Position numbers and translations under genes: made by a program
Notes under the pieces: generated by a model
Seen by the model: the letters and a program-made list of their open reading frames with translations, nothing else
Database searches by the model: none
What the model was told of the DNA's origin: nothing
Source: a virus
DNA length: 24,970 nucleotides
Reading direction: 5' to 3' (one strand)
IMG/VR virus record: IMGVR_UViG_3300049203_000061
Span: 1 to 24,970 of that record
In this document: one piece after another, positions 3,259 through 24,588 of the stretch
Numbering within the stretch: position 1 is the stretch's first letter
Layout: each line of letters starts with the position of its first letter

Positions 3259-3298
3259 GCTGCTCTCCTTGGGATTGTTCTATGTCGTGGAAGGGAAA

Positions 3299-3318
3299 AC
3301 GGGGCCGGCTGGCCCCGT
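3299..3318 (-). terminator. GC-rich hairpin after the 160-aa gene, probable terminator
   Basis: On the transcribed strand ACGGGGCC and GGCCCCGT form a perfect 8-bp stem around a 4-base AGCC loop. The stem begins about 10 bases after the stop codon and runs into TTTTCCC. The U-tract is short and partly inside the stem, so it may terminate only partially or mainly protect the 3' end of the upstream message. Confidence 0.6.
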
Positions 3319-3328
3319 CGGGTGCTGC

Positions 3329-5038: not shown

Positions 5039-5067
5039 ATTATATGGCTACATTTTACGCGTGGCAA
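5039..5067 (-). promoter_or_regulatory. Sigma70-type promoter for the major capsid gene
   Basis: On the minus strand a -35 box TTGCCA (5067-5062, 5 of 6 matches to consensus) is separated by exactly 17 bases from a perfect -10 box TATAAT (5044-5039). Transcription should begin near 5032, giving a leader of about 60 bases made up almost entirely of the hairpin. The region is AT-rich compared with its surroundings and lies in the largest gap of the structural module. Confidence 0.8.
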
Positions 5068-5097: not shown

Positions 5098-5292
5098 TCA
5101 CGATGTCATGATGCCCTTGGCGGCTATGAGGCCGATGCCTGGCGCCTCGTCCGCCACTTTCTTGACGGTCGTGGAGCGCGGCGCATCGACCGCGAGTCGG
5201 CCGGACTGGCCCGACTTCTTCTCGAACGTCACGGTGACGTCGCCGATCTGCAGTTGCTCGCCGGGTTTCAGGTCGATGCGCATCAGGGCCAT
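5098..5292 (-). CDS. CsrA-like small protein upstream of the capsid gene
   Basis: A 64-aa protein that aligns by eye with carbon storage regulator CsrA, which is about 61 aa. Shared features in order are GEQLQIGD (CsrA GETLMIGD), VTVT, a Gly-containing turn, RLAVDAP (CsrA RIGVNAP) and a following V-K-K where CsrA has V-H-R. CsrA is a dimeric beta-barrel that binds GGA motifs in mRNA leaders and controls translation. The key arginine of the second RNA-binding segment appears replaced by lysine, and the N-terminal TRR is not conserved, so RNA binding is plausible but unproven. The tail after residue 45 is divergent. Ribosome site weak (GAAAGCG). It lies between the scaffold-like and capsid genes; a small structural protein is the main alternative. 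Confidence 0.6.
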   Translation of the reverse strand: MALMRIDLKPGEQLQIGDVTVTFEKKSGQSGRLAVDAPRSTTVKKVADEAPGIGLIAAKGIMTS

Positions 5293-15111: not shown

Positions 15112-15309
15112 TTATTCGGCCAGCGCGGCGTCAATGGCGCGAACGGCGCGGTCGTGCAGGTCGCCGTCGCCTTCTTCGTTGAACAGCGCCTGATGCGCAA
15201 GCGCCAGCGCGGCGCGCAGCTCGGCATAGGTCGGCAAACCGACATTGCTCAGGTGCGCATCCGCCGTTGCGATGGCTTCCTGCTGCGCTTCCGTGAATTC
15301 TTTCGACAT
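15112..15309 (-). CDS. Small helical protein of unknown function
   Basis: A 65-aa protein (MSKEFTEAQQEAIATADAHL) that appears almost entirely helical, with heptad-like spacing through ALALAHQALFNEEGDGDLHD and RAVRAIDAALAE. The start is supported by a GAGAGAAAA-type purine-rich site. Its origin is not clear; similar small helical proteins are frequent in phage early regions. Confidence 0.6.
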   Translation of the reverse strand: MSKEFTEAQQEAIATADAHLSNVGLPTYAELRAALALAHQALFNEEGDGDLHDRAVRAIDAALAE

Positions 15310-15327: not shown

Positions 15328-15347
15328 GCGCCCACCTAAGCGGGCGC
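15328..15347 (-). other. GC-rich hairpin between small genes
   Basis: GCGCCCGC and GTGGGCGC pair over 8 bp (one G-U) with a TTAG loop, just after the 107-aa gene's stop. No U-run follows. It may be a stability element or a weak terminator. Confidence 0.4.
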
Positions 15348-15357
15348 GGGTTTGTGT

Positions 15358-15681
15358 TTAGGCGGCGCGACAACGTCCGCAGAGTGCATCCGCCGCGATC
15401 TTTCGAGCGTCCGCGCTGGCGGAGAACAACGTCGTCGCTTCCGTGACCTCGACGCCACAGGAAGGGCAAGCCCAATTGAGCGCCAGTCCTTCCAGAGTCC
15501 GCGCGATCCTGAACCCGGCATCAGCCAGGCCCATGTCGTTCGACTTGCCGCAAACCGCGTGGCAGGTCGAGCAGTCAGCGTGTTTGTTACCGTCGCGCGC
15601 CAGGACGCCGCCGCTGACCTGGGCGCAATCCCCATTCATCTTGCGGGCCAGTTCGACAGTAAGTAGCAGCGCGGCGGTCAT
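15358..15681 (-). CDS. Cys-rich, zinc-ribbon-like small protein
   Basis: A 107-aa protein with eight cysteines in ordered pairs: CSTCHAVC in the middle, CPSC at about residue 72 and CGRC near the C-terminus. This suggests one or two zinc sites. The start at 15681 lies only 3 bases after the U-run of an intrinsic terminator and has a poor ribosome site; an in-frame ATG at 15639 is the alternative. Its transcription must depend on read-through of that terminator or on an unseen promoter. Function unknown. Confidence 0.6.
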   Translation of the reverse strand: MTAALLLTVELARKMNGDCAQVSGGVLARDGNKHADCSTCHAVCGKSNDMGLADAGFRIARTLEGLALNWACPSCGVEVTEATTLFSASADARKIAADALCGRCRAA

Positions 15682-15684
15682 CTC

Positions 15685-15703
15685 AAAAAGCCGCTTACGC
15701 GGC
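15685..15703 (-). terminator. Intrinsic terminator with U5 tail
   Basis: GCCGC and GCGGC form a perfect stem around a GTAA loop and are directly followed by TTTTT on the transcribed strand. The stop codon of the 51-codon gene lies in the loop. It closes the small cassette that begins at the promoter 15900-15928. Confidence 0.75.
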
Positions 15704-15850
15704 CTCCGCAGTTTGGGACACCCAAGAGCAGGTGTAGAGGGATGCGGCCAGGATTTTGGCCTTGGATGGGGTGGCGGCGGAAACCGCCACGGTGCCGAGG
15801 GATTCCCCGGCCATGTTCCAGAAGGTGACGTTGAAGTTTTTGGTTTTCAT
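15695..15850 (-). CDS. Small independently transcribed gene (moron-like), 51 aa
   Basis: The protein starts MKTKNFNVTFWNMAGESLGT and ends in CSWVSQTAEAA; it is rich in Ser, Thr and Ala and could fold as two strands and a helix (SKAKILAASLYTC). The ATG is preceded by AAAGGGCAGGA. It has its own sigma70 promoter with a palindrome and its own terminator, unlike its neighbours, which overlap in a polycistronic run. That architecture is typical of phage morons, genes inserted between operon members that often alter the host or lysogen. The product is unknown to me; no membrane segment or signal is visible. Confidence 0.68.
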   Translation of the reverse strand: MKTKNFNVTFWNMAGESLGTVAVSAATPSKAKILAASLYTCSWVSQTAEAA

Positions 15851-15892
15851 GATCCTGCCCTTTCAGTATTCGCCGCGCCAAGTGCGCCGCCA

Positions 15893-15910
15893 CGTATTAA
15901 ATATAATACG
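15893..15910 (-). promoter_or_regulatory. 18-bp palindrome over the -10 box (operator candidate)
   Basis: CGTATTA-TATT-TAATACG is a perfect 7-bp inverted repeat with a 4-base centre. It contains the -10 box of the promoter at 15900-15928 and reaches the predicted start point. Position and symmetry are those of a repressor operator; a chance AT-rich palindrome is the alternative. Confidence 0.55.
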
Positions 15911-15928
15911 ATGCGAAAGAACTTTCAA
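15900..15928 (-). promoter_or_regulatory. Sigma70-type promoter of the 51-codon gene
   Basis: A -35 box TTGAAA (15928-15923, 5 of 6 to consensus) and a -10 box TATATT (15905-15900, 5 of 6) are exactly 17 bases apart on the minus strand. The AT-rich patch contrasts with GC-rich flanks. Expected start near 15893, leaving a leader of about 40 bases before the ribosome site. Confidence 0.75.
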
Positions 15929-15942
15929 GGTTTATTTGAACA

Positions 15943-17954: not shown

Positions 17955-18160
17955 TGATCGTCCTCGTCGTGGTAAATGTTCTGCGGCGCACCATCGGCAT
18001 CTTCGATAATCCAAGATTCATCTGGCTCGTTACCCGTGCCGATTCCGCCGATTACGACATCGCGCGCCGCTGCGATTTTTATCGCATCATCCAGGCTTCC
18101 CGCCTGCACTTCGGTGTAGGCGCTAACCGTCACATGGCAGTTCAGTTTGAACGTCTTCAA
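17951..18160 (-). CDS. Small phage protein, TTG start
   Basis: A 69-aa protein whose TTG start overlaps the upstream stop (TTGA), with AAGGAG 7 bases before it. The sequence KTFKLNCHVTVSAYTEVQAG followed by SLDDAIKIAAAR fits a small beta-alpha module found in several phage proteins, where a strand pair is followed by an A-x-S-x-x-x-A-I helix. The acidic C-terminus (EDADGAPQNIYHDEDDQ) is unusual. Function unknown. Confidence 0.66.
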   Translation of the reverse strand: MKTFKLNCHVTVSAYTEVQAGSLDDAIKIAAARDVVIGGIGTGNEPDESWIIEDADGAPQNIYHDEDDQ

Positions 18161-18714
18161 TTCTTCTCTCCTTGCGTGTCGTGAGATGCCGCCTTGGCTG
18201 CTGGTTTGTCTTCGCCTATTGGGTTCAGCACTGCGAATTCGCCATACTTCGCTATCGCGGCCTTGTTGTACGCATGTGCAGCCTCGTCTATCGTGTCGAA
18301 CATGCCCAAGCGCTTATCCTTGCCGTTGAGTCTGATAGTTGCGGCCCACCTTCTAGAAGATTCCTGGTAGACGCCTTTTCGGCCACTTTTGTTAGTCGGC
18401 GGCCGGTTAGCGATATTCTGCGCATTCGTCGCAATACGCAGATTGCTTATGCGATTGTCCGAGCGATTCCAGTTCTCGTGGTCTACCCTGCCACTGGGCC
18501 ACTCGCCGTAGTGCATCGCCCATGCCGCCCTGTGAGCCTGGAAAGCCGTCCTGCCGACATAAAGATCGACATAGCCGTCGCGATTGAGATATCCGGTTTC
18601 GCCGCCTGTTTTGAAGCCGTTCCGCGTCGACTTGATGCGGTAAAACTTCCCCGTCTTACTGTCGTAGCGGAACACCTCGTTAAGCTTCCTCAAGTTCTCG
18701 GCCGTTTCCTTCAT
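18157..18714 (-). CDS. HNH endonuclease with AP2 DNA-binding domain
   Basis: A 185-aa homing-type endonuclease. Residues about 55-105 form the HNH module: H61 in QAHRAAWAMHY, D78-H79 in RVDHENWNRSDNRISNLR, with N91 and N97 following. Residues about 109-164 (KSGRKGVYQESSRRWAATIR, then LGMFDTIDEAAHAYNKAAIA) form an AP2/ERF-type DNA-binding domain, the standard partner in phage HNH enzymes. These proteins make double-strand breaks or nicks and can spread as selfish genes. The gene looks richer in AT than its neighbours and uses AGA codons, in keeping with recent acquisition, yet it is neatly coupled by ATGA to the upstream gene. Confidence 0.9.
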   Translation of the reverse strand: MKETAENLRKLNEVFRYDSKTGKFYRIKSTRNGFKTGGETGYLNRDGYVDLYVGRTAFQAHRAAWAMHYGEWPSGRVDHENWNRSDNRISNLRIATNAQNIANRPPTNKSGRKGVYQESSRRWAATIRLNGKDKRLGMFDTIDEAAHAYNKAAIAKYGEFAVLNPIGEDKPAAKAASHDTQGEKN

Positions 18715-23517: not shown

Positions 23518-24588
23518 TCAATCTCCGCAGAAACAGGCGATCGCATCATCGTCGCCATCGATGCCGGCAAACAGGCTGCCCTGCTGGGTAGCGTATTCCA
23601 GCATGCGCGCATAGCCAGGCCGGTCGTTCCTGAACCGCGCACCGTCGGGCTTCGACGACAGGCCCATTGCTTCCATGCTGGCCCACCACACGGCGCGCTG
23701 CGGTTCCTCCTGGATCATCGAGAAGACTTGGTGCGGGCCTTTCAGGAAGCACAGGTCGCAATTGCCCCATGGCGTCGTGCCGTTGCGGTTTGGCAGGCCC
23801 AGGTCAAACGGCTGCGCGCGCCAAAACGCGGCGACGTCCTGCTTCGTAATGCCTGCTTCCGCCAGCGGGATGATCATCGTTTCCGCCTTGATCTCGGGCG
23901 ATGGGCGCGCGCGGATCTTGGCGATGCGGCGCGGCTCATCGGCCCGGATGCCCACCATCTGGTCCCAGCCATCCTCTTGCCAACCCAGCGATTTCAGGTA
24001 CTTATGGCCCGTGCGGATTTTCAGCTCGACGGTGCAAAAGCGCGTCACCGGGTTCGGCAGATAGTTGCGCTTCCGAATGATCGCCTCGAATGGCTCGCCG
24101 TTGCGGCTGGCCGTCTCGAACGTGACTTCGGCATAACCCTGCTCATCGTCGCGGTACTCCAGCCACTTGATCGGCACACCCCAATGCTGCTCGATGTCGC
24201 GTACGAACTGCAGCGTTTCCTCGCGTTCCTTGCCGGTGTTTTCGAACAGCGCCAGCGTGTTTTCAGGCAGTTTGCCGCCATTGGCCTGCATAACGAGCCA
24301 CAACATATAAGCCGAGGTGCGCCCGCCCGACACGCCGATGGCGGTGCGATCGTCGTCGTCGATCTTGAAAGGATTACGTGTCACCGGCTTTGCGATCAAT
24401 GCTTCTACGACTTCAGGATTCCTCCCAAGCAGCCCCAGCAAACCGGATTTTGTTCCATCGTTCTGCTTCCATTCCTCGAAGCTGATACAACCTTCATGGG
24501 TTGCCATAAGCTCGCCCGTCAAATTCAGGAATTCATTCCTTGACAAGAATCCAGCGCCCAGAATCATGCTTTCAAGTTCGTTATTCAT
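23518..24588 (-). CDS. PAPS-reductase-like PP-loop ATPase
   Basis: A 356-aa protein. After an N-terminal extension of about 80 residues comes the PP-loop SGGRTS (87-92), within AIGVSGGRTSAYML. Then follow the family pattern FENTGKEREETLQFV, a RFCTVELKI block with C185, and a C-terminal NCDLCFLKG (C277, C280) plus a final CFC (C352, C354). PP-loop enzymes of this family activate substrates with ATP; members reduce PAPS, thiolate nucleic acids or act in DNA phosphorothioation. The cysteines could hold an iron-sulfur cluster, as in DndC-like members. Which reaction is performed cannot be told. Phages carry it as an accessory gene. Ribosome site AAAGAG before the ATG. Confidence 0.85.
   Translation of the reverse strand: MNNELESMILGAGFLSRNEFLNLTGELMATHEGCISFEEWKQNDGTKSGLLGLLGRNPEVVEALIAKPVTRNPFKIDDDDRTAIGVSGGRTSAYMLWLVMQANGGKLPENTLALFENTGKEREETLQFVRDIEQHWGVPIKWLEYRDDEQGYAEVTFETASRNGEPFEAIIRKRNYLPNPVTRFCTVELKIRTGHKYLKSLGWQEDGWDQMVGIRADEPRRIAKIRARPSPEIKAETMIIPLAEAGITKQDVAAFWRAQPFDLGLPNRNGTTPWGNCDLCFLKGPHQVFSMIQEEPQRAVWWASMEAMGLSSKPDGARFRNDRPGYARMLEYATQQGSLFAGIDGDDDAIACFCGD

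Follow-up and report, generated by a model that had tools for sequence, protein, structure and literature searches.

Comparison with related phages indicates that an early promoter in this viral genome probably belongs to the resident backbone rather than to the gene it precedes. In the reading we favour, a probably repressible promoter with its operator and leader would express any small accessory gene that occupies an exchangeable slot, with a hairpin marking the far edge. The window referred to below is the whole stretch of DNA that was analysed, 24,970 bases (positions 1-24,970 of IMG/VR record IMGVR_UViG_3300049203_000061).

All long genes of the window run from right to left on the minus strand, small early genes first and terL (11280-9724) after them, followed by genes for the portal (8557-6281), a CsrA-like protein (5098-5292; Pfam E = 9e-6, just under the cut-off, and at the same place as csrA in Burkholderia phage JC1) and the major capsid protein (4970-3873). 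This order is common to JC1, a Bcep22-like podovirus (Lessievirus; PMC9144972), and TerL is 57-62% identical to that of phages such as Erwinia PEp14, Pseudomonas Itty13 and JC1. Given both observations, the genome can be assigned from its sequence to the Bcep22-like podoviruses. Its host lineage is most likely proteobacterial.

A number of other features can be placed on the same strand. Besides the promoter under study, the window has one more strong promoter, at 5039-5067 (TTGCCA-17-TATAAT, 11/12 consensus matches); it lies between the CsrA-like and major capsid genes and is retained in the closest relative (contig L008, see below). Some ten relatives have a promoter resembling it (mostly TTGCAA-17-GATAAT) about 6.2-6.6 kb beyond the start of terL. 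Just 3' of a 160-aa gene downstream of the capsid gene, a hairpin GACGGGGCCAGCCGGCCCCGTT followed by T's (3282-3319) is a likely terminator, present in the same form in L008. At 23521-24588 a PAPS-reductase-like protein is encoded (PHROG 424, E = 7e-53), of a kind common as phage auxiliary or DNA-modification gene. Within the run of small genes lies an HNH endonuclease gene (18160-18714; PHROG 99), possibly a homing endonuclease, and the ORF list of L008 holds no homologous gene at that place.

The promoter under study was found where an earlier note on this DNA had placed it, on the minus strand, with a -35 box TTGAAA (15923-15928) and a -10 box TATATT (15900-15905) separated by 17 bases, both boxes being identical in L008. 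It matches the consensus at 10 of 12 positions. On the coding strand of the whole window, 9/12 or better is reached by this site and just one more (0.3 per 1.6 kb in shuffled sequence), and L008 has both. An operator-like inverted repeat, CGTATTA-TATT-TAATACG (15893-15910, minus strand), covers the -10 box, as in repressor-controlled promoters. The earlier note had called it an 18-bp perfect palindrome: the location and the 7-bp arms hold and the arms are perfect, but the centre of CGTATTA-N4-TAATACG breaks the symmetry. Shuffling gives an expectation of 0.25 AT-rich 7-bp inverted repeats per window (loops up to 8), against two independent sites observed, and by a rough estimate the chance that one falls over the -10 box is a few per cent. 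Allowing up to three mismatches, the window holds one copy of the full palindrome. Judging from the spacing, transcription would start at about 15893, so the palindrome would span the DNA from about -17 to +1 and lie outside the RNA; such a placement, together with its symmetry, suggests a repressor site. The ribosome-binding region AAAGGGCAGGA (15853-15863, minus strand) is conserved in L008.

The main evidence for a resident block comes from that closest relative, a 64 kb contig retrieved by a search with the protein encoded upstream of the promoter. In a DNA alignment, 145 bases at 98% identity take in the last part of the upstream gene, the promoter, the palindrome and the leader and reach as far as the start codon; the intergenic block itself (15851-15942, minus strand) is identical at 91 of 92 bases. 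Directly past the start codon, L008 carries an unrelated 82-aa gene without similarity to the 51-aa gene found here (15695-15850, minus strand; ATG at 15850, stop at 15697-15695). A conserved promoter with different genes downstream is thus seen, as in PeSL-type modules (discussed below). The earlier note had looked to relatives lacking the gene for the exact insertion edges of a cassette; here the control DNA is kept and the place of the 51-aa gene is taken by another gene, so there is no empty site.

The second occupant of the slot, a 107-aa cysteine-rich gene (15358-15681, minus strand), is likewise absent from L008. Its protein has a distant relative in Vibrio phage EniLVp02 (35%), and the neighbour search matched no viral contig. 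Just past the last slot gene in both genomes stands a conserved 8-bp hairpin, GCGCCCGC-UUAG-GUGGGCGC (15328-15347, minus strand; UUCG loop in L008, no U-tract), and it is here that homology to L008 returns (36/40 bases). One copy of this hairpin was found in the window. Beyond it lies a 65-aa gene (15112-15309, minus strand) which is absent from L008 at this place.

Judged by sequence identity, the two phages form a mosaic pair, since the protein of the gene ending just before the block is only 76% identical (the gene itself 83% overall) and terL only 61%, against a near-identical block. Genes near the block reach 97% identity to L008. Given this figure and the much lower value for the terminase, it might be argued that the near-identity of the block could stem from recent exchange of the whole early segment without selection. 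The block stands before a different gene in one close relative, which makes the slot an observation on a single genome pair; the early locus is not shared by the other terminase relatives (L015-L032).

The reverse comparison starts from the 51-aa gene, for which homologs were found in Streptomyces phage SF3 (gp870, 73%) and in IMG/VR contigs L003/L004 (57% over 44 aa). Neither the palindrome nor the terminator is present at these homologs. SF3 has a stop-codon hairpin formed by the same Glu-Ala-Ala codons, though without the U's, the U-tract being missing from the homologs; L003 has a different promoter-like sequence upstream. No related terL was found in SF3 or L003/L004. Since L008 has the block but not the gene, and SF3 and L003/L004 the gene but not the block, the sequences indicate that gene and promoter travel independently, which contradicts a self-contained cassette.

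That the 51-codon frame with its ribosome site, listed in the earlier note, is a translated and selected gene is well supported by these homologs: the three sequences agree throughout at 20 of about 49 positions, TCSWxSQ close to the C-terminus among them, and comparison with SF3 gives a dN/dS of about 0.36, which points to purifying selection. The protein has no match in PHROGs, Pfam, NCBIfam or PADLOC, none among plasmids, and nothing in the GTDB genome scan. Its AlphaFold model is confident (mean pLDDT 89) and shows a beta-beta-alpha-beta arrangement. Fold searches return the SF3 homolog first; a large number of small phage proteins with this shape, all uncharacterised apart from one named RNA polymerase inhibitor, follow at weak E-values, as does PaaB (E = 0.45). 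These matches are too generic to indicate a function. We also rejected the WD-40 matches of a PDB sequence search, which span just 14-15 residues of repeat proteins. The strand order resembles that of T7 Gp2, though no kinship is claimed. The protein would most likely be a protein- or nucleic-acid-binding modulator.

At the end of the gene, the intrinsic terminator with five U's proposed earlier is present as GCCGC-GTAA-GCGGC-TTTTT (15685-15703, minus strand); a strict search of this strand yields it and one further candidate, against about 0.5 per 25 kb in shuffled sequence. Its strength is doubtful: the hairpin takes in the last codons of the gene, with UAA as the last three bases of the loop, and in vivo activity is consequently uncertain. 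The ATG of the next gene (15681) follows just 13 bases past the stop. Terminators just 3' of stop codons would be masked if a ribosome closely trails RNA polymerase, while B. subtilis, whose transcription runs ahead of translation, tolerates them (review of coupled expression, PMC7858274). In a proteobacterial host the candidate terminator may therefore be leaky.

The palindrome was also sought elsewhere. Among viral contigs the exact 18-mer occurs in only one other, that of L008, and there once in 64 kb; with no second copy in L008, no phage regulon is visible around it. The search for CGTATTA-N4-TAATACG at promoters, which the earlier note had proposed, gave five matches besides L008 across viral and genome contigs, mostly without a -10 box at the right place. 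The exception is a Eubacterium MAG (L045, 1588-1623), where the palindrome lies exactly over a good -10 box and directly before an XRE-family HTH gene; a scan of 398 genomes sampled from its family gave no second case. L008 itself encodes two weak Cro/C1/YdaS-like HTH proteins, one of them just before two genes resembling replication genes (the replication role being our own reading), and nothing ties either to the palindrome.

In four relatives (L020, L026, L028 and L030) a longer palindrome, GGAGTGGTTNGCTANAATAACCACTCC, with arms of 8-10 bp, lies across the -10 box of a promoter situated about 2.6-2.8 kb ahead of terL; in three of them tRNA genes follow this promoter directly. By this count, which ignores kinship, symmetric operators on the -10 box appear to be a recurring feature of the group. 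It is tempting, if quite speculative, to extend this to a promoter class of Bcep22-like phages with a symmetric operator on the -10 box, comprising the slot promoter, GGAGTGGTT...AACCACTCC in the four relatives and CATTGTAATACAATG in L008. Lineage-specific repressors would then coordinate accessory genes and phage tRNAs, and the promoter blocks would serve in addition as recombination arms, through which newly acquired genes would be controlled from the outset.

How do these results bear on other explanations? The earlier note had read the region as a moron-like cassette. Promoter, operator, 51-aa gene and terminator would then have been inserted together and would be transcribed independently, perhaps in a lysogen. 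Parts of that reading survive, namely that the gene is an accessory one specific to its lineage, that it lies in a polycistronic run of early genes, and that a separate promoter with an operator-like repeat precedes it; the compact size, the candidate terminator and the absence of the gene from L008 also favour it. The single inserted cassette does not survive: the promoter block is found without the gene in L008, and the gene without palindrome or terminator in its homologs, so no promoter arrives with the gene. The note itself had named occurrence with non-conserved promoter and terminator as what would speak against it, and SF3 and L003/L004 display exactly this. Moreover, the GC content of the gene (59%) is close to that of the window (62%), and ten related records yielded no tyrosine integrase except in SF3 (L008 also being without one), even though JC1, a more distant relative than L008, lysogenises stably (PMC9144972). 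We therefore regard an inserted cassette as improbable.

Somewhat less remote, though still doubtful, is an ordinary internal promoter which boosts the downstream operon of small genes and packaging functions. The palindrome would then be an accident of an AT-rich -10 box in GC-rich DNA, the near-identity a result of recent recombination, and the terminator weak or inactive. JC1 fits this, with a promoter-like TTGCAA-17-TATAAT about 4.9 kb before terL (4.6 kb here), as do the overlap of the hairpin with the stop codon, the single palindrome in L008 and neighbouring genes of up to 97% identity. Nonetheless, relatives have further symmetric repeats centred on a -10 box (the four promoters with 8-10 bp arms), and a hairpin with five U's is rare for the minus strand. 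It might also be argued that a regulator encoded by the host recognises the palindrome, and that the phage would in this way read the state of its host. The single site in the L008 contig, with no second phage copy, and the Eubacterium palindrome before an XRE-family gene agree with this. However, the latter is the only match in 398 genomes sampled from its family, and the host lineage here is most likely proteobacterial; we consider a host regulator unlikely.

Returning to the resident promoter, the following mechanism would account for the observations. A fixed early-region promoter with operator-like palindrome and untranslated leader would reside in the Bcep22-like genome, and the slot would open just behind the start codon, holding the 51-aa and 107-aa genes here and the unrelated 82-aa gene in L008, with the conserved hairpin as its other edge. 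Accessory genes may be swapped by homologous recombination within the shared block and near the hairpin, which would place each incoming gene under the same promoter. A repressor, possibly a phage protein of the Cro/C1 type, would bind the palindrome and block RNA polymerase. Partial termination at the stop-codon hairpin might be lifted once a translating ribosome covers it, so that some transcription would continue into the genes ahead of the terminase. The 51-aa product would be a small accessory protein of beta-beta-alpha-beta shape.

If this holds, the near-constant upstream block marks a slot from which new small genes of Bcep22-like phages can be collected in a systematic way, and a foreign gene could acquire regulated expression without a promoter of its own. 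It also illustrates that a neat promoter-gene-terminator unit in a single genome is no proof of a moron, since relatives can separate resident control DNA from cargo.

Several known systems share elements of this arrangement. In JC1, as in the window genome, terL is preceded by a series of small genes and by a promoter-like site (PMC9144972), but its TerL is only 57% identical, and its promoter sequence and slot genes differ. Phage morons and prophage accessory loci (PMC7067206) resemble the slot in having a small gene that is missing in a close relative, a separate promoter and a candidate terminator, whereas the slot promoter appears to be part of the backbone and not of the insert. In cluster K mycobacteriophages, the SAS/ESAS elements (PMC3203893) likewise precede small genes of diverse families as conserved sequences, in some cases with inverted repeats; each genome has many copies of them and the repeats of ESAS measure 17 bp, whereas the slot has one site only, its 7-bp arms lying across a sigma70-like -10 box. 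A further parallel is offered by the PeSL (promoter early-stem-loop) modules of T4-type phages (Arbiol 2010; Comeau 2014; as summarised in PMC4503421), in which a conserved promoter and stem-loop border exchangeable small genes. According to that summary PeSLs occupy many sites in another virus family, with the stem-loop adjoining the promoter. The slot is one site whose shuffling is deduced from one genome pair (one palindrome in the L008 contig, one full copy and one hairpin in the window), and its hairpin lies beyond the slot and has no U-tract. Overall, the arrangement seems similar in principle to these promoter/stem-loop shuffling modules, in that shared regulatory DNA can act as a recombination arm, as it would at the slot.
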